Of a stretch of 64,000 bases of DNA, positions 47,201 to 64,000 are shown one piece after another. The translations under genes and the position numbers were made by a program. The notes beneath the pieces are model-generated. The model was not told the DNA's origin. It saw only the letters and a list, made by a program, of their open reading frames with translations, and searched no databases. Source of the stretch: Obelidium mucronatum (taxonomy: Eukaryota; Chytridiomycota; Chytridiomycetes; Chytridiales; Chytriomycetaceae). The DNA lies in NCBI GenBank assembly GCA_025765595.1, contig JAIVFH010000036.1:62001-126000 (forward strand), given 5' to 3'. Each line of letters starts with the position of its first letter. Positions within the stretch are counted from its first letter, which is position 1.

Positions 47201-48368
47201 GATGTTCTTGAGCACGCAGTTTACTCTTTGCGTCAAGGAGAAAAGAAGGCGGGATTGGAAATGATGGGAGAGGCTCTCCATATTTATGAGCAAGTGTATG
47301 GCCCTGTTCACCTGGAGGCAGCCAAGGTGCAAAACCAGTTGGCAAGATTGCATCACGACCAAGGGGACTTTAAGCAGTGCAGATTTTTCCAAAGACGGGC
47401 TTTGTTGATTCATGAGCGCTTGTCTGGATTTGATGATCCAGAAACGTTACAGCAATATGTATGAACCACTTTTTTTTTTTGTTTATCTTGTTTCAATTAA
47501 CGATTCCACAAAAGCTGAATCTTGGATTTTTCGAATGCTTGAGTCAAAACTATTCGGTTGGATTCAAGTACATGAACCATTCGCTCAAGTTGATGCAGAT
47601 GCATTTGGGAGCGTCAGTCCACACCGAATTGGCTGCGGCTGATGTAAGTTATCTCACCGACGAATCGCAACACGGTTCTAATTTATTCGCCAACAGGCAC
47701 AAATCGCTATGCTTCTTGCTGAGAGCAAATCTGACCCTCAACTTGGACTCAAATTCCTCGCTAGAGCCATTTCAACTTACGAATCTGTTCTTGGCAAGGG
47801 ACATGATCAAACCATCCGTGCATACGAACTATACGTCAACAATTTGATTCAATCAGGAGATTTCGAATCTGCTCTCGAGTACCAGCAGATTGTGACCCAG
47901 TTTACAAAGGAAAAGCATACCGGAGACGATGAGAAGAGCAAAACAATCGTTTCCAATTCAGAAAGAGTAGTACAGTATTTGCAACAGAGAATCCAGCATG
48001 ATGTATGTATCTGTTGTTTTTTATTTGCTGTTTTTTTTTTTTTGTGAAGTGTTTTGACTTTTGACTTGCAGAAGGACGAAAAGGCAGCCGCAGCCCAAAA
48101 GGCGGCCGAAGCAGCAGCAGCTCCAAAAAAGTCCGCACCAGCATCTGCAAATTCTGCATCAAAGGGAACCAAGTCTGCGAATAAAAGCAAGGCTTCGCAG
48201 CCAGTATCAAACGGTACAGCCAAAGCAGCAGCACCTGTCGCTGTTCCAGCAGCAGTAGCAGCCGGCGACGAAGCAGTATCAACCAAGGGACACTTGTCGA
48301 TCGACGAGTTGATGAACTTTATTGACGGGACTGGGAAGAAGTCCAAGGGAAAGAAGGCCAAGAAGTGA
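44236..48368 (+). CDS. CLU1: Clustered-mitochondria protein Clu1/CluA (TIF31)
   Basis: Ten exons, 44236-44364, 44421-44595, 44648-44785, 44832-46298, 46350-46495, 46549-46698, 46751-47458, 47515-47643, 47697-48002, 48072-48368, join in phase to 1214 residues. Domain order fits the family: ubiquitin-like N-terminus with EFNEREVRIQLSRLREIL, CLU domain (about 336-580, RDWNEDLCSAALLP to RHELVDMYYENEL), CLU-central/eIF3-p135 region (about 740-900), TPR repeats (about 910-1060, EALHIYEQVYGPVHLEAA) and an Ala/Lys-rich end. Clu proteins bind mRNAs of nuclear-encoded mitochondrial proteins and keep mitochondria dispersed; yeast Clu1 associates with eIF3. An in-frame ATG at 44155 would add 27 residues. 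Confidence 0.95.
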
Positions 48369-48399
48369 TGAACATTTTACCCGTAATAAACAGACCAAC

Positions 48400-50277
48400 A
48401 TGCCTTCGTACTGCTGCCCCGACTGCGGCCAAGTGTTCAACAAACTCGGCCGCATCCGCATCCACGCCGGCGACAGCGGCCACATGGGCGGCATTCCCGC
48501 CCACAGCATGCAGCAGGCGACGGTCGTCCCGGAGACAACGCGCCAGCAGCTTCCGCCGCGCGCCGCCCCGCCGCCGCCTCTGGGCGGCCCCGCAGCGGCA
48601 AGCAGCGCCAAGAAGCGGGCGCCCGCGCTCGGTCTGGCGTCCCTCGAAGAACGCGTCCAGAAGACTCTGCTCGACACCTCGCGCTTCCACGACGAAGCCG
48701 CTGGCCCGCAGTACGAAGACGTCCTCAAAACATTCGACGATTTGCACTTGAGCCACGGCCCGCACGAGCTGCCCGCCTCTCTGTTTGACACTTTCACCCA
48801 CCAAATCAGAAAGCCGAAATCAACGCGTCGCCATGGAATGTCCCTCGCAAACCAGCACTCCAAGCATATGCTGGTGGAGTCTGCGTTTCTCGGCGTATCC
48901 TTGGACGACCGCGCAAGTGATTCTGCAGTTGATTTGTCGCTTCAGAATGACACCGAACTGGAACAGGACGACGGAACCTCTGAGAGTGATTCTGAGAGTT
49001 TTTCTGACTCGAACGAGCATCGTGAATCAACTGCGATTGGTAGACACCAGGAAATCTATTTGAACATCCACGAGCCATTCTGTTTGGTAGCGCTTGGTGT
49101 TCAAGGTTCCGGAAAATCCCACACCATGTCTGTCATTCTTGAAAACTGTCTCTTGCCAACAAGGCACCATAACTTCAAATTCCAGAAAGACCGTGATATC
49201 GTGAATCTCAAGGAACCGATGTGTGCCCTAGTTCTTCATTTCGACCAGAATCCTCAAAGTTTATGCGAATCAACGGGATTGATTAACCCAGCTCGTATTG
49301 CCGGCGAATATACCCTTCCCGCTCTCCCACGCGAAAAAATGACCGTCTTGGTTTCTCCATCTTACTTTAAACAACGCCGCCTGTTTTATGGAAGTTATTG
49401 CGAAGTTCGACCCCTCTTGTTTACCTGGACAACACTCTCCGCTGACCACATCAAGAAACTGATGCGTATCACTGAAGACGATAATCAGTTGTACATGGCC
49501 ACGCTGCTCGAACTTCTCCGCACCTACCAAAGAACCGGCAAAAAACCAGACTTTCAAACATTCCTCGATCAAGTGCAAGAGCTCTCCAACGTGAGAGGCC
49601 AAGAAGCCCCGCTCATCCAACGTCTTAATATTCTCCAGTCGTTTATCATCGAGAGCGAAAGAAACAAGGATATCCGTGACTACGCTATTGACTTGAACTT
49701 GCTTGTGAAGAAAGGGAACTTGATTATCACGGACTTGACTGATCCAATGCTTAGTTCGAACGAAGTAAACGGCGTCTTCCAGTTGTTGGTTGAAAAGTTT
49801 AGAGTTGCACCCTTGAGTAATTGTGGTAAGTTGTTGGCGTTGGATGAAGTGCACAAGTTTATGGATGGAAACAAGGAAGATGGATTGAGTGATGCGATTC
49901 TTGATACAGTGAGATTGATGAGACATGATGGGATCCGCGTCTGTTTGAGTACGCAAAGTCCGAAAGCGTTGCTGCCTGAGATTTTGGAGCTTGTGTCTGT
50001 GGCTGTTATGCATCGTTTTCATTCAAAAGACTGGTTTAGTTATTTGAGCGCAAAGTTACCGTTGAAGGACGATGACTTTGACAAGATTGTCGGATTGGAG
50101 CCAGGCGAGGCAATTGTATTTGCCGGAAGACATATGTTGGGTTTGGGTGATTGTCAGGCGGCTGATGGCTCTGCTATGGGTTCGACTAATCTTCAAAGTG
50201 GCCAGGGATACACTTTGAAAGTTGGCATTAGACCACGTTTGACGGCGGATCGTGGCTCTTCTCGAATGAATAAGTGA
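48400..50277 (+). CDS. Zinc-finger P-loop ATPase of unknown function
   Basis: Single exon, about 625 residues, starting 31 bp after the Clu1 stop. The N-terminus carries one C2H2 finger (YCCPDCGQVF ... RIHAGDSGH), then a Pro/Ala-rich GC-rich linker, an acidic region, and an ATPase domain from about residue 225. Walker A is VQGSGKSHT (about 237-245) and a Walker B-like KLLALDEVHKFM lies near 490, followed by a sensor-like CLSTQSPKALLPEIL. This order (A, B, then the STQ motif) resembles the HerA/FtsK/VirD4 superfamily of additional-strand ATPases rather than AAA+. I do not know a characterised fungal relative, and the substrate is unknown. Confidence 0.8.
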   Translation: MPSYCCPDCGQVFNKLGRIRIHAGDSGHMGGIPAHSMQQATVVPETTRQQLPPRAAPPPPLGGPAAASSAKKRAPALGLASLEERVQKTLLDTSRFHDEAAGPQYEDVLKTFDDLHLSHGPHELPASLFDTFTHQIRKPKSTRRHGMSLANQHSKHMLVESAFLGVSLDDRASDSAVDLSLQNDTELEQDDGTSESDSESFSDSNEHRESTAIGRHQEIYLNIHEPFCLVALGVQGSGKSHTMSVILENCLLPTRHHNFKFQKDRDIVNLKEPMCALVLHFDQNPQSLCESTGLINPARIAGEYTLPALPREKMTVLVSPSYFKQRRLFYGSYCEVRPLLFTWTTLSADHIKKLMRITEDDNQLYMATLLELLRTYQRTGKKPDFQTFLDQVQELSNVRGQEAPLIQRLNILQSFIIESERNKDIRDYAIDLNLLVKKGNLIITDLTDPMLSSNEVNGVFQLLVEKFRVAPLSNCGKLLALDEVHKFMDGNKEDGLSDAILDTVRLMRHDGIRVCLSTQSPKALLPEILELVSVAVMHRFHSKDWFSYLSAKLPLKDDDFDKIVGLEPGEAIVFAGRHMLGLGDCQAADGSAMGSTNLQSGQGYTLKVGIRPRLTADRGSSRMNK

Positions 50278-50374: not shown

Positions 50375-52473
50375 TCACGACCTTCTGCACCGAGTTTCCA
50401 GATTGCTTGTTCCAACCATGGATGAATCTGCTGTATTGCTTTGCCTAAGGAGGTTCCCATGACTTTCAAGAAGTTCGACGACTTTGGAGTCAGTAAGCTG
50501 TGAGTTGTGGTCATAAAGAATAAAACGATATGTCATAATAAAATTCTAAGTCACACTTGCCGTGGAAACTTGCTTAAGGATCCAGAGAAGCCCGTATCTG
50601 AGTTGATGATGATTGTCTTTGGCCCGATTCTTCCAAGCCAAGGCATCAGCCTCGTTTTTCTCTATACCCCTTCCCTTTTCATACATATAGCCTAGCATAT
50701 ATTGCGCCTGATGAAAGTTTTAGTTGCGTTGATGGGCAGGATAAATAACTGACATCTGCAAGCTCCAGTTTCGCGGCTTTCTGGTACCACTCAAAAGCTT
50801 GAAAAAAATCTTGTTTTATTCCGGAACCAAGGTAATATAGAGTCCCCAGTCTAAATTGTGACTGTGATATTGCCGTCGACTGTTCGCCCAAGAGATTATG
50901 TTGTGAAGCAGCTTTCAACGACCATTCCATGGCTTTGGTGTAATCCTTTTTGTCGACATAAATTCTACCCAAAGAGTCTTGAGCTTGAATATCACCCTCT
51001 TCCGCCGCTTCTGTGAGACGCTTGATGGCTAAGTGTTCATCCTTCTTGACTCCAATCTCTTGTTCAAGCATTACACCCAGCCTCACTTTGGCCTGTGACA
51101 ATTTTGTGAATTCTGATTAAAACAAGTCACAGATGCATTATTTACTTTAGTGTGTCCAGCTTTAGCAGCCTTCTCATAATAAGCTTTGGCTTTTGTATAG
51201 TTCGGAGCTGCCAGACCGCGTCCTTTCTCATACAGAGAGGCGAGGTTAAACTGCGCCTGGAAAACAAACTATTCAATTGGAATTATTATACATTAGAATG
51301 CGAATAGCACCTGGATTTCACCCTTATCAGCTGCCAGGTTATACCAGTGTATAGCTTTTGCGACGGATTCTGGAATTCCACGTCCGTTCTCGTACATCAC
51401 TGCCAAGTTACTTTGCGCCTTTTGATCAATTTTAATTGCAAGACAATGTTACGAAGTGATTGGACAGAAAATTCAAGCTGATTACCTCTGCATGTCCGTT
51501 CTCTGCTGCCTTCAGGTACCACTCAAAGGCAAGTTTATCGTCAGCAGTTGGACTGCCAAAATTTGAATCAAACCTAAGACCCATCCTAAATTGGCTCGTT
51601 ATGTCGTCTCTCTTTGCGTCATCTTCCAATGCTTGAAGAGGATCTGAAACGGTTGTGAGACTGGAAATACTTGGCAAAGCCTTCGTTAACTCGGACATAT
51701 TGATGGGTTGGTTGGTTGTATCGTAATAAGGAGTGTCGCTCGCAATAAACCCTGCACAGCTCTTCGTCCATTGGCATGGAGTGTTTCCAACAAGAATCAT
51801 GATACGAGGGAGTTTACATGCGCGAGTTATGTACTGGAACTCAAGCTTGCAGTTTTCGGATGCCAGATACTGTTCAGACATGCAGATTATCGCAAACTTG
51901 GAGACGGTTATCGCGTCATGTAACTCCTTGGAGAGACGGTTTCCAAGTTGCAGCCTATCGACATCAAGCCAAGTTGAGTATCCGTTCTTCGACAAATCTC
52001 GCGCCAACTGCCGTGGATCGCATGGGCCAGTGTTAGCCGATCCCTAATTCACCCTTGTCTTTGGCTTCCTTTGAGTTGCGCCAGCAATAGCTCATAAAAA
52101 TGGTCCATGGTTTTGATATTGTAGTGGGCAAAGCAGGAAGAGGGCCATTTTGGACTGGTGAAAGACTGGTAGTTGGTGTGTTCGACTCGGCAGGTTGTAG
52201 CGATGGTGTCAAAGCAACGTTCGGAACTTGCAAAGGTAATAAGCTCCCCTGTTTTGTCAGAAGCTCATTACGTGCAGCAAGCAACGGTTTGGTTTCTTCC
52301 GTATTGGCTTTCATTTGTTCTCCGCACTCTTTGAGCTGTTCCTTGTATATCTCGATCTTGTGATAACCGTCAGTGTTATCAATTTTTGTTGTTAGGTCCT
52401 TGCGCTCTCTTTGCAGAGCCTGACGCTCATTGTACAACTTCTCTAGCTTTTTGTTGATTTCACTCAGTTGCAT
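50375..52473 (-). pseudogene. Broken TIR-Sel1 copy (array copy A), GTPase missing
   Basis: This is the paralogue of the complete copies to its right. The coiled coil and the start of the TIR domain (52473-52033) are intact. Then, compared with copy B, five bases are missing near 52040, which brings TAA at 52033 and shifts the frame; the rest of the TIR (SKNGYSTWLDVDRLQLG to SEQYLASENCKLE) is open in the shifted frame. Sel1-repeat exons remain spliceable at 51418-51311, 51256-51146, 51092-50754 and 50707 onward. After KNRAKDN the sequence diverges, a weak match to the linker (SKVVELLESHGNLL) reappears near 50450, and it ends before any GTPase. The left edge abuts the ATPase gene. No restored protein is implied; it could survive only as a truncated product. 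Confidence 0.75.
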
Positions 52474-52521
52474 GTTAGGAAGGTAGCGGCTGCGGCGTTT
52501 CTTCTAACTGACTTTGTTTGA

Positions 52522-52570
52522 AATAAGAGATTGACGGCCGCTTAAATCGCCTTCTTCGAACAAAAGATTG
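52522..52570 (-). promoter_or_regulatory. Upstream element shared by the TIR-array genes (copy A)
   Basis: A block of about 50 bp, 49 bp upstream of the copy A start, reads (plus strand) AGAGATTGACGGCCGCTTAA then CGCCTTCTTCGAACAAAAGA. It recurs almost unchanged upstream of copy B and, with an insertion of a few bases, upstream of copy C whose neighbouring sequence has diverged. It includes the TTCGAA palindrome and a CGGCCG palindrome. Confidence 0.6.
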
Positions 52571-52609
52571 TCGCGAAGAGATTGACAAAAGTTCGGCTTG
52601 TGTTGCTTG

Positions 52610-53659
52610 TACGGTGGTCCGTACGCCCCTGCAAAATTTCAAAAACACAAAAAAACAACTGACCAATCAGAAACCGACCAATCAGAAACTGACCAATCAG
52701 AAAATGGTCAAGAAAAACATGAAACGCAACTCCCAAGCAACCAAGCATCTACCACCGCTGCCCACCACCTCCAGTCCCAGTAGCCACAGTCGCTTGCTTC
52801 GCTCATAGAGCCGATAGCCGCGGCAGCCGCTGTCAACGGTCGTGCCACTGCCAACCCAATCTGCCAGCAGGATCTTGTGTCCCGCTCTCCTGGCCAACGG
52901 CATTGTCTCCTAACGTGGTTCATATGCTTCCATTGCCATCGTATAGCCGTCGACGCTGCCGCTGCGGTGTAAGTGCAATCATGACTTTATTTTCGCTGCC
53001 AACATTCTCTAACACTGACATGTAGCACTTTTAGTTCCAGCCACGCTGTCCAGAGCCTCCACTATGGCTCTCTTTGCCGTGTCGGTCCCTTCGACGCTGC
53101 CGCTGCTGTGTAGGTACCATCCCGACTTTATTTTCACTCTCAATTGCTCTCACTGTGATAGCTAACAATTTCAATACACCCATTAGCATTCCACTGTAGT
53201 TCTCTTTCCTTTTCCGGCTCTGGACGCTGCTCATCATCTTCAGCATCACCTTCGGCGTCAAACTTGGGTCTCTCCTCCTCCAAACCTGCCCCACCACGCC
53301 TCTTCCTTCCCTTTCCTGCAGCTTCATTGCAAGCGGATAGTTCTTGAATTCGTCCTTGATTTATCATGCGTCTATGGGCGACTGCTGGTCTTTGGGTGCC
53401 ATTTCAGAGTCTTTTAGCAATGTGGACAGTATTGAGACGGTAAAAAGAGCCACAGGGACAACGTGAGACAATGTGTCTGTTATTAAAAGAGTTAGATGTC
53501 ACAGTTGGCGTTTGTTGACAGCACAAATAAAGTTGTGTTAGTGCATTTAGTGCTTTTTTGACCATTTTCTGATTGGTCAGTTTCTGATTGGTCGGTTTCT
53601 GATTGGTCAGTTGTTTTTTTGTGTTTTTGAAATTTTGCAGGGGCGTACGGACCACCGTA
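52610..53659. mobile_element. Non-autonomous DNA transposon with 102-bp terminal inverted repeats
   Basis: The ends 52610-52711 and 53558-53659 are exact inverted copies of each other, 102 bp, beginning TACGGTGGTCCGTACG and carrying three CCAATCAGAAA units. The element is flanked by the direct 6-bp repeat TGCTTG (52604-52609 and 53660-53665), a target-site duplication. Total length is 1050 bp. The interior has only short open frames and two short direct repeats (around 52945 and 53085, GACGCTGCCGCTG followed by an ACTTTATTTTC stretch). No transposase is recognisable, so it must move with help from an autonomous relative. The perfect end identity suggests a recent insertion. The superfamily is undetermined. 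Confidence 0.88.
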
Positions 53660-53919
53660 TGCTTGGGACGCCGTTCCTTCAAACAATGGCACATCGAAAT
53701 GTCCCATAAAATTTAATGCGTCAACAATGATACAGGTTTCTAGAAACCTGGAAAAAGCGGCAGGGTCCTTAGTTCCCGATAAATCAGAATGTTTGACTGT
53801 CAATTATCGAAAAAGTTATATTTTGGGGAAAGGTGTCGATTAAAATGATAAAATAGACGAAAGAATGTGGAAATAAAGGAAACAGTGGATAAAAAAGAAC
53901 AAAGAAGCTTCACGCGGAT

Positions 53920-56900
53920 TCAAATGTATGTCTTGTTTCCGTTACCATTGATGTAGTACCGGCCACCACGTGGGCCTGTATAAATTTGACGTCCATTCAA
54001 CCCATCATTCCGCTGAAGATATAAGAAATAATGTAAGCCGATCACAAACGTCACAAAATTTAAATACCGTCATGGCTTTCAATTCACGCTTTTGCCTCTC
54101 CATTGCCTCCCTGGTTTCTTCAGTTTCTCGTTCCAGAATCAAGTATTCTTCTCTGGCTCTCTCCTTTTCGGATTCTTGTTCCTGAAGCTGCTTTTCAAGG
54201 AGAAGTTGCGTTCGGATGGCCTGTTTCTCTCGCTCTTTCTCTTGAGCTTCTCTCAACATCACCATTCGTTCAACTTCCGCCTTCTTTTTGTTTCGCTTAT
54301 TTTCTTCATTCATTCTCTTCTTCATTGTGTCCAAGGTTTGGTGGGTCTCTTGAATTTTCAAGTTTAACAACTTGAACTGCTCTTCAGTTTTTTGTTGTTC
54401 GTTCTTGATTAAGTCTTCCATAGCTTTGTCTTTTGCTTGATTGGCTAGCTTAGCTTCATTCTTGAGTTCAGCAATTTCTCGATCCAGCCTTATTTGCAGG
54501 GCTTTCAATTCATCCTCCAGAACCAGCCCTGCACTTGTCTGATTCAATGGCATATGGTTCTTCACTATTTCAACTTGCAGCTTGGTAGATTGTGCCGGTT
54601 TGTGGATGAACTCCTTCATGAGCGCTATTCCATCACCTTCAGTGACGAGGCGAGCATATTTCGCCCCTTTGTCCAAAAACAGCTTGAAAATTGAATTTTG
54701 GAGCTGCCCTTCTCGCTGGACAGCTTTCTTCATTTCAACTTCCGCTTGGACCATATCCCAACGAGTTGTTGCAATTGCCACATTCGTGTAAAAATCCTCC
54801 CCGCAGAGCTCCTTGAAGAGCCTGATGGTTTTCGTTGTTGAACCACCAACCCTGGGATTGGCAATAGAATGAATGTATATAATCCCAGTCAGCAGAGCAT
54901 TTTTTTCAGAAGCATATGTCAAGTATCTTGATATCTCTTGCAACACATCGGCGTCTGACTTAAACTCTCTTCCTTTTCCGCCAGACTCATCAAAGCCAGG
55001 AGTGTCGAGTATTTGAAATTCAACGCCATCGATTAGAGCAGTATATGCTGCGACTTCTGATGTTTCAGACTCAATGTTTTCTCCGATAACTATATCGTCA
55101 CATCCTGTGAGCTGCTTAACAAAAGTGCTCTTTCCACTGCCTGTCGAACCCATTACAGCCACGATTTTTGGCCCTTGATTTGACGATTCAGGGTGGAGAT
55201 GAAAGAAGTCTTCATGTCTTACCTGTATCGGTAACGATATCATTAACTCTCTCCTGATTACTTGATCCATTGCTGGATGGTTCTGTGGCAGTATTTTGTG
55301 CTAGGAGGTCAAAAGAATGTAGTGCTATGACTTTGGCCGCTTTTAGCTTCTGTTGGTCGGGTTGGTAGCCATTGTCTAGGGCGCGATTCTTCCAGGACAT
55401 AGCATCAGCCCCGTTTTTCCTTACACCTCTTCCCTTATCATACATATGACCTAGCATATGTTGCGCCTAATGAGGCTTTTGGTAAGCATTGGTAGAACCA
55501 GTTTAATGAGTAACTTACATCTGCAAACTCAAGGTTGGCGGCTTTTTGGTACCATTCAAAAGCTTCACGATAGTTTTGCTTTACTCCATAACCAAGATAA
55601 TATAGGTTTCCTAGTCTGCATTGAGACTGAGATATCGCCATCGAATGTTCGCCCAATAAATGATTCTGTGAAGCAGCTTCAAACGACCATTTCTTGGCAT
55701 TAATGAAATCATCTTTGTCGCCGTAGATTCGGCCCAGCGTATCTTGAGCTTGAATATCACCCTCTTCCGCCGCTTCTGTGAGAAGTTTGATGGCTAAGTT
55801 TTCATCCTTCCCAACTCCCCTTCCCTGTTCAAACATTAAAGCCAGCCTCACTTTCGCCTATGATACGCTTAAAAATTGATAGAAAGAATCCAGCATGGTG
55901 TTACAAACCCCAGAGTGACCAGCTTTGACAGCCTTCTCATAGTACGCCTTTGCCATTGTATAGTTAGTGACTTCGCGTTCTTTCTCGTACAGAAGCGCGA
56001 GATTGAACTGTGCCTGCATAAAGACAAAGAATTCAATCAGGCGATAAAGTGGGCATCATGGAAAGTTGTACCTGGAGTTCGCCGTTATCAGCTGCCAGAG
56101 TATACCAGTGCAGAGCTTTTGGCAGCGAGACCGAAACCCCATGCCCTTTTTCATACATAACTGCCAAATTATTTTGTGCCTGTTATTCAAATTTAATTCT
56201 GAGATATGCGGCTATATGCTTTAGAAGACAGGCCGAATACCTCTGCATGTCCACTCTCTGCTGCCTTCAGGTACCACTCAAAGGCAAGTTTATCGTCAGC
56301 AGTTGGACTGCCAAAATTTGAATCAAACCTAAGACCCATCCTAAATTGACTCGCAGCGTCACCTCCCTTTGCGTCATCTTCCAATGCTTGAAGAGGATCT
56401 GAAACGGTTGTGAGACTGGAAATACTTGGCAAAGACTTTGTTAACTCGGACATATTGATGGGTTGGTTGGTTGTATCGTAATAAGGAGTGTCGCTCGCAA
56501 TAAACCCTGCACAGCTCTTCGTCCATTGGCATGGAGTGTTTCCAACAATTATTACAATGAACGGGACTTTTATACGAGCTATGAACTTCAACTCAAGCTT
56601 GCAGTTTTCGGATGCCAGATACTGTTCAGACATGCAGATAATCGCAAACTTGGAGGTGAGTATTGCTTCATGTAAATCCTCAAAAAAACGTTTTCCCGAT
56701 TTAAGCCTATCGACATCAAGCCAAGTTGAGTATCCGTTCTTCGACAAATCTCGCGCCAACTGCCGTGGATCGCATGGGCCAGTTTTTGGTTCTGCGATCC
56801 CTAATTCACCCTTGTCTTTGGCTTCCTTTGAGTTGCGCCAGCAATAGCTCATAAAAATGGTCCATGGTTTTGATATTGTAGTGGGCAAAGCAGGAAGAGG

Positions 56901-57230
56901 GCCATTTTGGACTGGTGAAAGACTGGTAGTTGGTGTGTTCGACTCGGCAGGTTGTAGCGATGGAGTCAGAGCAACGTTCGGAACTTGCAAAGGTAATAAG
57001 CTCCCCTGTTTTGTCAGAAGCTCATTACGTGCAGCAAGCAACGGTTTGGTTTCTTCCGTATTGGCTTTCATTTGCTCTCCGCACTCTTTGAGCTGTTCCT
57101 TGTATATCTCGATCTTGTCATCACCGTCAGTGTTATCAATTTTTGTTGTTAGGTCCTTGCGCTCTCCTTGCAGGGCCTGACGCTCATTGTACAACTTCTC
57201 TAGCTTTTTGTTGATTTCACTCAGTTCCAT
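53920..57230 (-). CDS. TIR-Sel1-GTPase protein, array copy B (complete)
   Basis: Seven exons, 57230-56241, 56179-56072, 56013-55909, 55857-55519, 55466-55223, 55173-54068, 54012-53920, join in phase to 994 residues. Order: coiled coil (1-60) and linker; TIR domain (about 125-260) with PWTIFMSYCW, GYSTWLDVDRL and the NADase-type motif SEQYLASENCKLE, whose last Glu is residue 213; seven Sel1-like repeats (about 290-565); GTPase (about 600-760) with G1 GSTGSGKST, G3 DTPGFD, G4-like TTRWD and GIIYIHSIANPRVGGS as in fungal AIG1-like G proteins; coiled coil rich in Gln/Glu/Arg (to 960); tail QIYTGPRGGRYYINGNGNK. No signal peptide or membrane segment, so cytosolic. An immune-type sensor whose TIR cleaves NAD is my inference. 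Confidence 0.88.
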
Positions 57231-57599
57231 GTTAGGAAGGTAGCGGCTGCGGCGTTTCTTCTAACTGAATTTGTTTGAAATAAGAGATTGACGGCCGCTT
57301 AAATCGCCTTCTTCGAACAAAAGATTGTCGTGAAGAGATAGGCAAGTTTTTATCGGTTTGTGTAAATCTCTTTTATCAAGAAGGGACAGTCACAGTTGCA
57401 ACTCAAAAGTTGAAATGGAATTCATTTTTATACAGCAGTACGGGGTAGCAGTATGGGTGTCCAACAATGTCTGTTTATTGGAGCTCTTGAAATTCGATGG
57501 ACGAAAACAACTTCTTATAACGGTCGGATTGATTAAGTTGAAACGAATAAAGAATAGAAAAAGAAAGGAATCAGATGAAGAATATATGTGGGTCTCGAA
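57231..57599 (-). promoter_or_regulatory. Intergenic region B/C with shared upstream element
   Basis: 369 bp between the copy B start and the copy C stop. Bases 57231-57333 match the region upstream of copy A nearly base for base, including the conserved block at about 57279-57327. After that the two diverge. The remainder carries the terminator of copy C; no gene is visible. Confidence 0.6.
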
Positions 57600-60500
57600 T
57601 CACAGGTAAGTCTTGTTCCCATTTTCATTAATGTAGTAGCGGCCGCCATGGGGGGCTGTATAAATCTGATCATAGCTGGGTGAGGCTTGCATCTGAGGCA
57701 AAAGACGTACATTGTAAGATACAGGAAAAAAAAAGATCTACAAAATACCGTGAAAGTAATCACAGCACGGATTTGTCTTTCCCTTGCCCGAACTTCTTGA
57801 CTTGGTCTCTGTCGCAATTCTAAAGATTCTTGGCTTGCCCATTCTGCATTCTCCCGTTGCTCAGCCAATGCCGCATCATGATCGAATTCTGCCTTTTGCC
57901 GTTCCTTTTCGCGGTATCTCTCTTGCTTTTTTCTGAGCATTACGAGTCGTTCTGTTTCAGCAATATCTCTCTGGCGAGTCTTCTCTTCAATCATCTTCTC
58001 TTTCATTGTGCCCAAGGTCTGATGTGTCTCTTGAATCTTTGCATTCAGCGAATCCAGCATAACTTTCATATTGGCTATCACACTTTCTTCTGTACTCTTC
58101 ATTGATTTTGTCAGCTGATCCAGTGCTTGTTTCTGTGCAAACAATTCATCCCTAAGAACCAACCCTGCCCTTGTTAGACCAAATTCCTTTTGATCATTTG
58201 AAATTTCCTCTTGTAACTTGACAGGCAGTCCCTGTTTGTCTTTGAGTTTCCTCAATAGTGCAAATTCATCGCCTGTGGCCTGGAGGCGACTGTATTCCGC
58301 CCCCCTGGCCAGAAACGGTTCATAAGTTGACCTTATGAGCTGCCCTTCTCGCTGGACAGCTTTCTTCATTTCAACTTCCGCTTGGACCATATCCCAACGA
58401 GTTGTTGCAATTGCAACATTCGTATAAAAATCCTCTCCGCAGATCTCCTTGAAAATGTTGATGATTTTCCGAGCTGACTTTCCAACTCTGGGAATGGTAA
58501 TATTGTGGAGATAAATAATCCCAGACAGCCGAACATTATTTCCGAACGCGAATACCAAGTATCTGGATATCTCCAACAATACATCTACATCCGACTGAAA
58601 CTTTCTTCCTTCTCCGCCAGACTCATCAAAGCCAGGAGTGTCAAGAATCTGAAATTCAACGTCGTCAATTAAAGCAGTATATGCTGTGATTTCAGATGTT
58701 TCAGTTTGAATATTATCGCCAATAATGACGTCATCACATTTTGTGAGTTGCTTGACAAGCGTGCTTTTTCCACTGCCAGCTGAGCCCATTACCGCCACAA
58801 TTCTTGGACCTTCGTTTCAATTAGGATTACTTTGTGCGATTAAACTCTATGGAGATTTAAATCTTACCTGCGTTCGTGACATGGTCAGGAGGGCAACCTA
58901 GGTTGTCTAATCCCTTGTTGGATGGCTTGACTGCATTATCTTGTACCGCCTCAACAAGGCGATCCGTACAATGGTATGCTATGTCGTTCGGGGCAGTTAA
59001 CTTTTGGGTATCAATAGATTGGTATCCATTGGCTTTGGCCCGATTTTTCCAAGCCACGGCATCAACCTCGTTCTTCTCTACCCATTGTCCCTTGTCATAC
59101 ATATAGCCTAACATATACTGAGCCTGATAATGGTTTTAGTAGGCGTCTATAGAAGATGCTAAATGGAGTAACTAACAAATGCGAAGTCATGTTCTGAGGC
59201 TTTCTTGTACCAATAAAAAGCTTTACGATAGTTCTGTTGAGTTCCGAAGCCAAGATAATACAGGTTAGCCAGTCTGCATTGAGACTGTGATATCGCCATA
59301 GAATGTTCTCCCCGCACATGATTCTGTGAAGCAGCTTTCCGCGACCATTCCATGGCTTCGCGGAAGTTCTTTTTATCGCTGTAAAATCGACCCAGGGTAT
59401 CATGAGCTAGAATATCACCCTTTTCCGCTGCTTCGGTGAAAAGCTCGATAGCCAAGTCTTCATCTTTGTCCACTCCCGGTCGTCCTTGCTCAAATATTAA
59501 ACCCAGCCTAACTTTCGCCTATGGCACGTTTAAACATGGCTTGAAATATTTATTATTGAGTTACGTACCCCGGTGTGCCCAGCTTCAGCAGCTCTCTTAT
59601 AATACTCCTTGGCTTTTACAAAGTTCGGAATTAGGAGACCCTTTCTTTTCTCATACAAGAACGCAAGATTGAATTGTGCCTGAAAGACAAGAGTTCACTC
59701 AGGCAATTAATGTAGAACGTAGTACCTCGAGTTCACCGTTATCTGCTGCCTGGGTGTACCAGTGTAAAGCTTTTGGCACGGATTCTGGAATTCCACGGCC
59801 GTTTTCGTACATCACTGCCGAGCGAGTTTGCGCCTGTTGATCAATTGTAATCGCAAGATAATGCTACGACGTGATTGGAGAGAAAATTCGAGCTGATTAC
59901 CTCTGCATGTCCATTCTCTGCAGCCTTCAGGTACCACTCAAAGGCAAGCTTATCGTCAGCAGTTGGACTGCCAAAATTTGAATCAAACCTAAGACCCATC
60001 CTAAATTGACTCGCTGCGTCACCTCCTTTTGCGTCATCTTCCAAGGCTTGAAGAGGATCTGAAACGGTTGTGAGACTGGAAATACTTGGCAAAGCTTTTA
60101 TTAACTCGGACATATTGATGGGCTGGTTGGTTGTATCGTAATACAGAGTGTCTCTCGCAATAAACCCTGCATAACTCTTGTTCCATTGGCATGGAGTGTT
60201 TCCAACAAGAATCATGATACGAGGGAGTTTACATGCGCGAGTTATGTACTGGAACTCAAGCTTGCAGTTTTCGGATGCCAGATACTGTTCAGACATGCAG
60301 ATTATCGCAAACTTGGAGACGGTTATCGCGTCATGTAACTCCTCGTAGACATGGTTTCCAAGTCGCAGCCTGTCGACATCGAGCCAAGTTGAGTATCCCT
60401 TCTTCGACAAATCTCGCGCCAACTGCCGTGGATCGCATGGGCCAGTTTTTGGTTCTGCGATCCCCAATTGATTCTTGTCGTTGGCTTCCTTTGAGTTGCG

Positions 60501-60920
60501 CCAGCAATAGCTCATGAAAATGGTCCATGGATTGGAAGCGAGCGGCAATTCGGTTTTCGTTGGCGGGTGCAGCTGGCTGGTCTCCGCGTCGGCGGGGAGT
60601 GGCGCGGATGTGCTTGGACTCACGGCGACTCGCAGCGGGGTGCGCGAGTCTGTTTTAGCGCTTCGATTTGCAGCGCGTGGCTCTTGGCCAGCAGCGCCAG
60701 CTAGACGCTCTCGTGTAGAGTGTAGACAACGTGTTTCGCCGATTTTCGCCGCGATGCGCCTGGCGCAATCTTTAAGCTGGTCGCTGTATGTCTTGATTCT
60801 AGCAGGCTCCTCTGCAGATGTGTTGTCGATTTTCGTTTTCAAATTCGTGTGCTCTCCTTGCAAGGCCCGAAGCTCATTGCCCAACTTCTCGAGTGCTTTG
60901 TCGATTTCATCCAAGTTCAT
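57600..60920 (-). CDS. TIR-Sel1-GTPase protein, array copy C (complete)
   Basis: Seven exons, 60920-59901, 59833-59726, 59679-59569, 59518-59177, 59123-58868, 58809-57749, 57692-57600, join in phase to 996 residues, same architecture as copy B. The N-terminal coiled coil and linker are clearly diverged (GC-rich linker 60540-60740), but the TIR domain is very close to copies A and B; catalytic-type Glu is at about residue 222. The Sel1 repeats differ most. GTPase: G1 GSAGSGKST, G3 DTPGFD, G4-like TTRWD. Coiled coil shorter, with a different heptad region. Tail QIYTAPHGGRYYINENGNK keeps the basic-adaptor-like pattern with A and H replacing G and R. Likely functional by the unbroken frame. Confidence 0.88.
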
Positions 60921-61502
60921 GGTGGGAAGGCAGTGCTACAGTGGAGTCACGAATTTGTTGGATCGACCAAAAATAACAAGAGATTGACGGCCGCTCTTTA
61001 GAAACTCGCCTTCTTTGAACAAAAGATTGCCACAGGAGGATTGCCGGCTTGTACTAGTTTGCTGTTCAAAGCATTTCTTATCACGTCCAACTCCCTCAGC
61101 TCTGACTCTGTATCTACCGAAACTGGTACTCTCAAGTATTCCGACTAAGTCGAGCTCTTTGACTTCATGCGCCATCTTCTCAAAACTTGATGGCAAAAGC
61201 CGAACAGAACGTATCAGGATATTGAGGGGGTCCAGCCACACAAACATTCTATTATTTGATGACCAACTTCATAATATAAAGGTTTAAAAATGCTTGGTTG
61301 ACGCCACTACAATCATTTTGGGAACTTAAAAGAATAAGCTGTGCCACCATGAATTTCAACCAAGGAACCCCTATCAATCTGATCATTTTGATGAACTTTA
61401 TTGAAGTCATTCAAAGAAAAACGAGCCGTTAAGATAAAGGGGGGAGAGCGAAAAGGGGGAAAAAAGAAAGGTAAGTATGGGAAAAGATGGCAAAGGTTGC
61501 AT
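60921..61502 (-). promoter_or_regulatory. Intergenic region C/D with shared upstream element
   Basis: 582 bp between the copy C start and the copy D stop. The conserved upstream block lies at about 60974-61029 (AGAGATTGACGGCCGCT, then CGCCTTCTTTGAACAAAAGA), interrupted by a few bases relative to A and B. A minus-strand open frame of 103 codons (61247-60936) overlaps it but has no recognisable motif. The end next to copy D is A/G-rich. Confidence 0.6.
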
Positions 61503-64000
61503 TCAAATATAAGTCTTGTTTCCGTTGCCATTGATATAGTAGCGGCCACCACGTGGACCTGTATAAATTTGGCGTCTTTCATGAGACCTGGATCTCGTTT
61601 CGTAATCGGGATTCTGTGCAAATTTCTGAGGAAAAGAACAATTTGTTACTGTTAGGGCTCAAAAATGAGTATCATTTCTACCGTCATGGAAATAACTGCA
61701 CGCCTTTGTCGCTCCACGGCATTTCTGGCTTCTTGGGTTTCTCTCTGCTGAATTAACAGCGCTTCTCTGACTCTTTGATTTTCCCATTCTTTTTCCATCA
61801 ACTGCTGTTCCAAGAGTCGTTCATGGATTCTTGATTCATGCTCAAGCCGAGTGCGTTGCTCTTCTAAAGCCTTCTTGCGAATGAAATCTTGCTGCTCGCG
61901 AATACTCCTATCCTCACGTTCTTTCTCTTGGGCTTGTCGCAACATCACCATTCGTTCTATTTCTGCCTGTTTGCTGCGGCGCTCATTTTCTTGAAGCATT
62001 TTCGCTTCCATTGCAGCCAAGTTTTGATGTGTTTCTTGGATTTTCTCAGTCAAGATTCGAACCTTTTCTTCAGCTTTTTGTTGCTCCTTCTTGATTAAAT
62101 CTTCTGTGGCTTTGTCTTTTGCCAGGTTGGCCTCCTTAGCTTCTTTCTTGAGCTCAGCTATTTCTTGATCCAACTTCGCTTGGAGGGCTGCCAATTCACC
62201 ACCAAGAACCAACCCTGCACTTGTTTGATCGAATTGCTTATGGTTGTCCACGATCTCAGTTTGCAACTTTGTGGATTGTGCCGGTTTGTGGATAAATTTC
62301 TTTAAGAGTTCGAGTCCATCGTGTGCTGTGTTGATACGTGTGTATTCTGCCCCTTGATTCAGAAACTTTGCATAAACAGATTTTTTGAGCTGCTCTTCGC
62401 GCGCAACAGCTTTCTTCATTTCAATTTCCGATTGCATCAAATCCCAGCGTGTTGTTGCAATTGTAACGTTGGTGCAAAACCTGTCTCCACAGAGTTCCTT
62501 GAAAATGTTGATGAATTTCGCTGATGATGCCCCAAGTCTAGGAGTAACAATATTATGAACATAAATAATCCCAGTCAAAAGATCTTTCCTTTGAAACGCA
62601 AAGGTCAAGTATCTTGATATCTCTTGCAACACATCAACGTCCGACTGGAACTTTCTTCCTTCTCCACCAGAATCATCAAAGCCGGGCGTGTCGAGGATCT
62701 GAAATTCAACCCCATCAATTAGAGCAGTATAGGCGGTTATTTCAGATGTTTCGGATTCAAGGGCATCCCCAATGATGATATCTTCACATCCTGTGAGTTG
62801 CTTGACAAGGGTGCTCTTTCCACTGCCTGTAGACCCCATTACAGCCACGATTTTTGGTCCTTGGTTTGAATTTTTTTAAGGGAGACGCAAATGATCAGCA
62901 TAAGCATCTTACCTGTGTTCATACTAGAAGTATTGCCCTGATTGCCTGATTGATTGTTTAACGGATCTGCTGACTTCTCTTGTGCAAGGCGCTCAGAAGA
63001 ATGGAGGGCTATGACTTTTGTGGCTATTAACTTCTCGTCGTTGGCTTGGTAGCCATTGTCTAGGGCGCGATTCTCCCAAGATAAAGCATCAACCTCGTTC
63101 TTATCTACACCTCTTCCCTTTTTATACAGATAGCCAATCATGTATTGTGCCTGAGAAAGGACTTCAGTTGTGTTGAATAGCAGAGCCAAGGTAACAAACT
63201 GACATCTGCAAACTCAAGTTTAGCGGCCCTCTCGTACCATTCAAAAGCTTGAAGATAGTTCTGTTCAGTTCCGTAGCCAAGGTAATACAGATGACCCAGT
63301 CGGCATTGAGACTGCGACATCGCCATCGAATGTTCACCCAGCAAATAATCCTGGGAAGCAGCTTTCAATGACCATTCAATGGCTCTGGCGAAATCCTTCT
63401 GGTCGCTGTAAATTCGACCCAATATGTCTTGTGCTTGAATATCGCCTTTTTCTGCGGCTTCTGTGAAAAGCCTGATGGCGGACTCCAGATCTTTTTTTTC
63501 GCTTACTTTTCCGTGCTCAAACATTAAGCCCAGCCGCACTTTCGCCTATGCTACTTGTTCAATTCCTACACGAAGAAATCAGTTCTCTTATTTACCCCCG
63601 TGTGTCCAGCCTGAGCAGCCTTCTCATAGTAAGCCTTGGCTTTTCCGTAGTTATGACCTGTAAGACCACGTGCTTTCTCATACAAAAATGCGAGATTGAA
63701 CTGTGCCTAGAATCCAGAATTGCAATTAAATCAAGTTCCTGGGCATATGCTGATCGGGCAAGTAATACCTGGCGCTCGTCCTGGTCAGCCGCCAGAGTAT
63801 ACCATTTGAACGCTTCTGAGTATGACTGCTGAGTTCCTTGACCTCGATCGTACATAACGGCCAGATTGTTTTGTGCCTGTTGAACATTCATCAGAATCTT
63901 CAATTCTCAATTGAACGACATACCTCTGAATGACCTTGTTTTGCAGCCTCCAAGTACCAATGTAGCGCTTGTTTATCGTCTGCAGTTGGACTGCCAAAAG
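61503..64000 (-). CDS. TIR-Sel1-GTPase protein, array copy D (5' end beyond window)
   Basis: Seven exons are inside the window: 64000-63924 (partial), 63876-63769, 63706-63596, 63545-63204, 63150-62913, 62859-61682, 61625-61503, all in phase. The visible part starts in the first Sel1 repeat (GSPTADDKQALHWYLEAA) and continues through six more repeats, the GTPase (G1 GSTGSGKST, G3 DTPGFD, G4-like TTRWD, GIIYVHNIVTPRLG) and the longest coiled coil of the array. It ends RRQIYTGPRGGRYYINGNGN with KTYI, identical to copy B in the core. The TIR domain is expected just to the right of the window but is not seen. Donors GTCAGT in copies A and D at the same exon show common descent. Confidence 0.86.

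Follow-up and report, generated by a model that had tools for sequence, protein, structure and literature searches.

A tandem array of TIR-Sel1-GTPase genes in the chytrid Obelidium mucronatum: a candidate receptor with a GTPase in place of a STAND switch

What might a fungal protein do in which a TIR domain, a scaffold of Sel1 repeats and a GTPase follow one another in a single chain? The question is raised by four tandem paralogues (A, B, C and D) that lie head to tail on the minus strand of a 64,000-base window of the aquatic fungus Obelidium mucronatum (C36:62001-126000; the contig measures 320266 bases, the genome 48.3 Mb in 694 contigs). A first-pass annotation had described the array as a candidate NLR-like immune or cell-death system. 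Here we report that three neighbouring copies (B, C and D) are intact, each with TIR, repeat scaffold and GTPase in one protein. Judged from the sequence, this is a genuine, intact architecture that is under selection and, within the reach of our searches, restricted to this species. What the protein does can be answered tentatively: it may work like an NLR without being one.

Results and discussion

The head-to-tail arrangement of four paralogues is far beyond chance, as judged by the Pfam E-values for B and C: 8.5e-44 and 1.3e-51 for Sel1, 1.3e-12 and 2.3e-13 for TIR_2, 4.1e-8 and 1.4e-8 for MMR_HSR1. Only two complete copies had been claimed. We find three, D being complete as well but running off the window: its first exon (C36:126907-125924) holds the TIR, which consequently lies outside. 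The models of B, C and D were built by hand from the sequence (Table 1), and each contains six introns of 46-67 bases (GT...AG) at shared positions and with phases 0,0,0,0,1,0. For D the model is identical, letter for letter, to the deposited protein BDR26DRAFT_820927 of O. mucronatum (1027 amino acids, aa). The deposited model of C (P0002, 788 aa) begins at an inner Met within the TIR, and the open frame continues upstream of this start to a Met in a region resembling B and D. No deposited protein for B is present among the matches of the full-length, GTPase and TIR protein searches.

It might be argued that two genes were mistaken for one, with TIR-Sel1 and GTPase transcribed apart. The join coincides with an intron, related GTPases stand alone on contig C77 (see below), and the deposited C model begins inside the TIR. 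We nevertheless reject this reading as very improbable, because in all three intact copies the phase-1 intron at the join preserves the reading frame, and D is deposited as a full-length protein. Intron phases and deposited protein together support the prediction that each intact copy is a single full-length gene joining TIR, Sel1 and GTPase. The order is a short helical-looking N-terminus, TIR, seven Sel1 repeats, a TRAFAC GTPase, a long charged helical stretch and a PBCV-type tail, in agreement with the single cytosolic chain that had been proposed. The largest 19-residue hydropathy means (1.7, 1.0 and 1.4 for B, C and D, the first inside the B TIR) indicate no clear membrane span.

The anticipated domains are all recovered: TIR_2, TIR, Sel1 and MMR_HSR1 exceed the Pfam cut-off in both B and C, and the precomputed domain list of D contains the same four. 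With 48.7 (B) and 51.1 bits (C) for TIR_2 against a cut-off of 28, and 34.3 and 40.9 bits for TIR against 21.3, B and C belong to the TIR domain superfamily. The catalytic-type motif SxxYLxSxxCxxE was correctly recognized, since S..Y..S..C..E is kept in the TIR of B, C and D; the positions named for its Glu (213 in B, 222 in C) are right as well, and the counterpart in D is Glu211. Among solved structures the B TIR alone best matches AtTIR (1e-4) and Roq1 (3e-4). A profile built from eight TIR stretches in this genome, including those of three array copies, reaches 71 distinct PDB sequences at 0.01; the best 60 of these 71 were inspected and include Roq1 (6.4e-13), AbTIR (6.7e-7), RPP1 (1e-6) and SARM1 (4.1e-6). 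The motif Glu falls on residue 86 of the Roq1 chain in an ungapped alignment, and in the plant matches among the alignments compared residue by residue (five for the profile) it lies on the Glu of Roq1 and AtTIR, which we take to be catalytic in both. The array TIR thus resembles NAD-cleaving TIRs and may be such an enzyme, but non-enzymatic TIRs match the profile as well (see below).

Sel1 scores are high (146.9 bits in B and 171.6 in C, cut-off 30.7) and the units are in tandem. The stated number of seven can be read by eye, but Pfam reports six stretches.

The GTPase is of the TRAFAC type in B and C: MMR_HSR1 passes with 33.8 and 35.3 bits (cut-off 21.9), together with G1 and G3. In B the P-loop GSTGSGKS is found at residue 604, DTPGFD at 652 and TTRWD at 731, and all three intact copies hold G....GKS, DTPGFD, TTRWD and GGRYYIN..GNKTY. 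The label 'AIG1-like' used before is loose, as Pfam AIG1 stays below its cut-off of 27 in B (19.8 bits) and is not listed for C. No STAND NTPase exceeds its Pfam cut-off in B or C. For C, NB-ARC (15.5 against 23.5) and NACHT (13.7 against 26.7) align over the P-loop only, and neither is listed for B; nSTAND_NTPase5 obtains 15.9 (B) and 17.7 bits (C) against 34. Since no NACHT or NB-ARC reaches its cut-off, membership of the NLRs is rejected by definition. An effector plus superstructure-forming repeats, as NLRs have, is present (TIR, Sel1), but the repeats precede the switch.

A protein search with the GTPase gave 4 matches at 1e-3 among 3530 candidates. Two are proteins of this genome; the others, from Arthrobotrys musiformis (36% identity) and an unnamed protein (34%), both list MMR_HSR1 only. 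Within the genome (11 matches, 20 candidates scored) the GTPase is found in B, C, D and two divergent genes on C77. These lie in divergent orientation at C77:48422-51250, are related to the array and lack TIR and Sel1. One of the frames ends, by eye, in a CCHC-like zinc knuckle. In the gene on the plus strand the GTPase is followed by a tail-like stretch (16.7 bits, below the PBCV_basic_adap cut-off). It would seem, then, that TIR-Sel1 was joined to an older unit consisting of GTPase, helix and tail.

Behind the GTPase, 43-52% of the residues are E, K, R or Q and 0-1% are proline (B, C, D), and the stretch is likely to be helical; a coiled coil is plausible. The coiled coils that had been proposed at the N-terminus and behind the GTPase are no more than candidates: both stretches are charged and nearly proline-free, but a simple heptad score is reached by 1 to 31 of 200 shuffles (13, 1 and 25 at the N-terminus of B, C and D). 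The 'basic tail' matches PBCV_basic_adap over the cut-off of 20.4 at the exon level in B (24.1 bits) and D (23.4), whereas the whole-protein scan gives 19.6 for B and C is listed in neither.

P-loop, DTPG and a following helical stretch are shared with the AIG1/GIMAP, septin and TOC paraseptin GTPases, from which the array differs by its AIG1 score, its G4 (TTRWD) and the fusion to TIR-Sel1. By analogy with these proteins, assembly through the G face is likely. The motif G.IY.H and the Arg following it are invariant in four chytrid GTPases aligned (Arthrobotrys has Lys). As a guess, this Arg could be a G-face arginine finger as in TOC, GIMAP and septins, an idea to which a passage of PMC11238149 lends some help.

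Such likeness also suggests a different protein altogether: a GTPase-led machine, comparable to septins, TOC or GIMAPs, that would take part in processes of membranes, organelles or zoospores. TIR and Sel1 would then be its partner modules, and defence would not be involved. The unit exists without TIR or Sel1 on C77, once with a tail-like stretch; selection is purifying throughout (see below); and the paraseptin GTPases include TOC and AIG1/GIMAP, according to the same passage (PMC11238149). Housekeeping genes, however, seldom lie in tandem arrays that include a decayed copy and a patch of conversion, and protein searches found no relative with these domains outside the species. We consider this machine improbable.

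Selection and exchange among the copies

The ratio of nonsynonymous to synonymous rates (dN/dS) was calculated between copies according to Nei and Gojobori; as some dS values exceed 1 the estimates are rough. It amounts to 0.21-0.41 in TIR, Sel1 and GTPase, 0.31-0.37 in the N-terminal region, 0.20-0.23 in helix plus tail and 0.37-0.85 in the linker (32-34 codons), meaning that the array domains are under purifying selection. Diversifying selection, looked for between copies as support for a sensor role, was not found. Variable columns among B, C and D (gaps counted) make up 91/128 of the N-terminus, 66/164 of the TIR, 124/289 of Sel1, 30/37 of the linker, 85/206 of the GTPase, 134/185 of the helix and 25/44 of the tail.

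Between B and C, dS is lowest in the TIR (0.30); it reaches 0.68 in the GTPase and 0.76 in Sel1, and rises to 1.6 in the N-terminus and 2.3 in the C-terminal part. The low value of the TIR relative to the remainder points to a conversion patch and bears out the suggested mosaic exchange. Just before the TIR of C (window 60520-60740) a segment has 62% G+C against 49% in its counterpart in B and differs strongly in sequence; it is possibly an insertion or replacement.

Tandem birth and decay are supported too, by three intact copies next to copy A. The TIR of A is 5 bases shorter than that of B (a frameshift) and an in-frame TAA occurs at 52035-52033. The alignment to B stops at about 50612, after the Sel1 part (piece compared: 52472-50540), and the GTPase search of the genome has no match in A. 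By its sequence, A is a pseudogene. Overall, the description 'typical of conflict genes' fits with respect to decay and exchange, but not with respect to dN/dS (0.20-0.41 outside the linker) or to Sel1, which is no hot spot.

Conversion between copies might alternatively be expected of an allorecognition system, in which the copies are specificities rather than anti-pathogen receptors. To our knowledge, hyphal fusion is no habit of such chytrids, and diversifying selection between copies is lacking. Fungal HET domains, distant relatives of TIR, do serve allorecognition according to an excerpt of PMC10197012. On balance we regard this option as quite unlikely, less so only than the two-gene reading.

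All four copies share a 24-base element (CAATCTTTTGTKCRAAGAAGGCGA) at 74-109 bases before the ATG, with AGCGGCCGT slightly downstream of it. Allowing three mismatches, it occurs 4 times in the 48.3 Mb, once before each copy, while a reversed-pattern control gives 0 matches genome-wide; the exact match of the four copies is built in, since the pattern was derived from them. Kinship of the copies explains part of the sharing, yet the surrounding upstream DNA is much less alike between C and D. Co-regulation of A to D through this element is possible.

Relatives and known systems

Outside the species the same domain set was not encountered in the full-length, GTPase and TIR protein searches, which are of limited sensitivity (a match must share words of 5 residues with the query and be 0.55-1.75 times as long). 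The full-length search gave at least 94 matches among 7999 candidates scored. Among the matches listed, TIR, Sel1 and GTPase appear together only in P0001 (copy D). Partial sets are Sel1 plus GTPase in P0002 (copy C), GTPase plus Sel1 without TIR in P0005 and P0045, and TIR_2 (27.5 bits against 28) plus Sel1 without GTPase in P0041. Both matches of the TIR search (254 candidates) come from this species. For D, the best 25 of 29 NCBIfam families listed are all below cut-off; the best of five PADLOC matches listed are LeoBC on the GTPase (7.3e-8) and PDC-S66 on the TIR (2.1e-6), each covering about 55-60 residues of a longer profile. In bacteria, the TIR alignment (A6) returned 34 pattern matches and no relative. 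Of 120 stretches examined with the GTPase alignment (A8), 11 were relatives, with 28-65% identity over 23-99 residues; we take these as the common G1-G3 fold. A viral origin, suggested by the PBCV-type tail, was discarded: two scans of viral contigs gave no relative for the GTPase (one pattern gave 0 matches, another 127 without a relative), the tail itself not being scanned.

The claim that no described protein has this order agrees with our searches of proteins and of the open-licence literature, where no paper combines 'TIR domain', 'chytrid' and 'Sel1'. Parts of the combination are on record, among them in the KfNLRs (Kf being a green alga). There, nucleotide-binding genes are fused with Sel1 repeats, as stated in an excerpt of PMC7145615. 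Likewise from excerpts, TIR domains in chytrid NLRs (PMC9815663), a small group of fungal TIR NLRs (PMC10197012) and kinase-TIR proteins in choanoflagellates (PMC6040629) have been reported. TIR, Sel1 repeats and AIG-type GTPases are among the effectors of one bacterial iSTAND conflict group (partial text of PMC7159879); they are separate effectors of multi-gene systems there, whereas the array is one fused fungal chain. The fused TIR-Sel1-GTPase order was not found in print, nor do the parts consulted of PMC7159879, PMC7145615 and PMC3710099 show it.

TIR-type NLRs (plant TNLs, fungal and chytrid TIR-NACHT proteins) likewise have a near-N-terminal TIR, a nucleotide switch and repeats in one chain, but the switch of the array is a TRAFAC GTPase instead of a STAND NTPase and its order is TIR-repeats-switch. 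SARM1 shares a TIR enzyme with a helical repeat scaffold, and its TIR matches our profile; it has no GTPase, carries ARM and SAM domains instead of Sel1, and its TIR comes last.

Other TIR genes in the genome

TIR domains were said to be rare in fungi; in this genome they are not: with E up to 1e-3, TIR_2 is found at 28 places, and 23 of these exceed the cut-off (places are counted by exon, so the number of genes is lower). At least 6 of the 28 have a Sel1 match at most 4 kb downstream on the same strand: the four array copies, C37 and C282. This is a lower bound because the Sel1 search scored 150 of 328 candidates. A NACHT match at most 2 kb downstream is seen for 5 of the 28 (C70, C319, C84 and two on C74), and one frame on C74 holds TIR_2 and NACHT together. 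These neighbour counts used all 10 NACHT places and those 13 of the 150 listed Sel1 places whose contig also has a TIR match. The TIR-NACHT genes (L016:3378-5345; C74, C70, C84, C319) represent conventional TIR NLR parts in this chytrid. Furthermore, a frame of 772 aa at L013:5163-7478 (minus strand) combines TIR_2 (66.1 bits) with a BTK motif behind it (27.2 bits, cut-off 24).

The loci on C37 and C282, which are very similar to each other, share with the array (and P0041) a TIR followed by Sel1; they have no GTPase and carry a kinase before the TIR. At C282:10500-20000, successive frames encode a protein kinase (91.5 bits), TIR (28.4 against 28) and Sel1 (133.8), and at C37:131000-140000 the end of the kinase and the start of the TIR lie within one open frame; kinase, TIR and Sel1 may form one gene. 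Read across one intron, the C282 TIR keeps SENC..E. The N-terminal C282 frames look helical by eye, and Pfam has nothing for them up to E 1. Both loci show breaks, a split kinase frame at C282 and about 2 kb of additional sequence separating TIR and Sel1 at C37, and may be decayed. TIR-Sel1 would accordingly occur beside two different regulatory modules, the second perhaps decayed; this leaves our assessment below unchanged, as that rests on the array.

A GTP-switched TIR enzyme?

The reading we favour, although it falls somewhat short of an even chance, is that each intact gene encodes a soluble intracellular GTP-switched TIR enzyme. The Sel1 solenoid would hold a partner or ligand and keep the protein quiet. 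Upon a trigger, the GTPase would bind GTP and dimerise or polymerise, with G face and helical stretch as contacts and the tail determining where this takes place. The TIRs would in this way come together, complete their active sites and either cleave NAD+ or produce a nucleotide signal. As a result metabolism might be arrested, the cell or thallus might die, or an alarm might be raised against viruses, bacteria or parasites of the chytrid; the copies would act as parallel detectors or as subunits of one mixed assembly. Catalysis, GTP gating and the immune or cell-death role are inferred from the domains. The reading as a whole is favoured by the TIR Glu, P-loop and G3 kept in B, C and D, by purifying selection and by the private upstream element; the setting is given by the TIR-NACHT genes of the same genome. 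Of the label 'NLR-like' the mode of working may stand, with a non-STAND GTPase as switch; by definition the protein is no NLR.

Several observations weigh against this reading. Sel1 shows no more variation than TIR or GTPase in dN/dS or in variable columns (B, C and D), which weakens the idea of a fast-evolving sensor surface. G4 is TTRWD rather than the canonical NKxD in B, C and D, so the preference for guanine is only assumed. The best heptad score behind the GTPase is matched by 31, 20 and 27 of 200 shuffles (B, C, D). Finally, the TIR profile also matches TLR1 (2.9e-6, better than SARM1) and MyD88 (5e-4), whose TIRs signal without enzyme activity; a profile match is thus no proof of catalysis.

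This last point also suits an alternative in which the TIR is a docking domain without enzyme activity and the protein a scaffold: as the GTPase assembles, the TIRs would be clustered and would attract a further TIR protein encoded in this genome. At C37, the kinase-TIR-Sel1 locus has a TIR 51% identical to that of B (over a 61-residue piece), against 25-35% for the four other non-array TIRs aligned. Docking alone would leave the retention of Glu and motif in B, C and D, and the plant and bacterial TIRs as best structural matches, less well explained, and it appears unlikely to us, about as much as the GTPase-led machine.

Features and surroundings

Between A and B lies an element of 1,050 bases whose terminal inverted repeats, 102 bases long, are perfect (window 52610-53659). 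With 27 genome-wide matches to its end, of which 22 form 11 facing pairs, it is by sequence a member of a non-autonomous DNA transposon family; the perfect repeats suggest recent activity. At window 48319-50277 (plus strand) there is an open frame of 652 aa, the start of which looks zinc-finger-like by eye. Its P-loop weakly resembles HerA or Zot ATPases, all below the Pfam cut-off.

Table 1. Positions of array features in the window (strand and support as available; C36 coordinates where indicated)
Feature	Position	Strand	Support or remark
Copy A pseudogene: N-terminal region, frameshifted TIR, Sel1 part	~50612-52473	-	
Upstream element of A, CAATCTTTTGTTCGAAGAAGGCGA	52547-52570	-	
Copy B, whole gene, 994 aa, 7 exons	53920-57230	-	spliced model, six GT-AG introns
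B exons	57230-56241, 56179-56072, 56013-55909, 55857-55519, 55466-55223, 55173-54068, 54012-53920	-	spliced model
B N-terminal region, residues 1-112, helical-looking	56895-57230	-	44% identical to C, 60% to D
B TIR, residues 113-275; Glu213 codon 56594-56592	56406-56894	-	Pfam TIR_2 and PDB matches
B Sel1 repeats and linker to GTPase (end of exon 1 to exon 5)	55223-56405	-	Pfam Sel1 146.9 bits
B GTPase and long charged helical stretch (exon 6)	54068-55173	-	Pfam MMR_HSR1; motifs
B C-terminal tail exon, PBCV_basic_adap-like	53920-54012	-	24.1 bits at C36:115923-115994
Upstream element of B	57304-57327	-	
Copy C, whole gene, 996 aa, 7 exons matching B in place and phase	57600-60920	-	
C exon 1: N-terminal region, TIR, Sel1 start; Glu222 codon 60257-60255	59901-60920	-	Pfam TIR_2 51.1 bits
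C exon 6: GTPase and charged helical stretch	57749-58809	-	Pfam MMR_HSR1 35.3 bits
Upstream element of C	61006-61029	-	
Copy D, part within the window	61503-64000	-	start C36:126907, 907 bases past the window end; 1027 aa
Upstream element of D, beyond the window	C36:126982-127005	-	

Conclusions

The array could encode a new sort of cell-death or defence receptor. Going further, it is conceivable but rather doubtful that it represents a class of fungal immune receptors with the effector first, where assembly of a paraseptin-type GTPase instead of a STAND ATPase activates a TIR NADase, a TIR-Sel1 core having been fused to an older GTPase-helix-tail gene. Early-diverging fungi are poorly known with regard to nucleotide-switched TIR immunity. 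One genome here contains TIR-NACHT, TIR-Sel1-GTPase and (perhaps decayed) kinase-TIR-Sel1 genes, that is, one effector domain with three kinds of switch. Should the GTPase prove to gate the TIR, nucleotide-switched TIR immunity would have arisen with a second, unrelated switch fold, and it would become testable whether it is the logic of sensor, switch and TIR that matters rather than the STAND domain.

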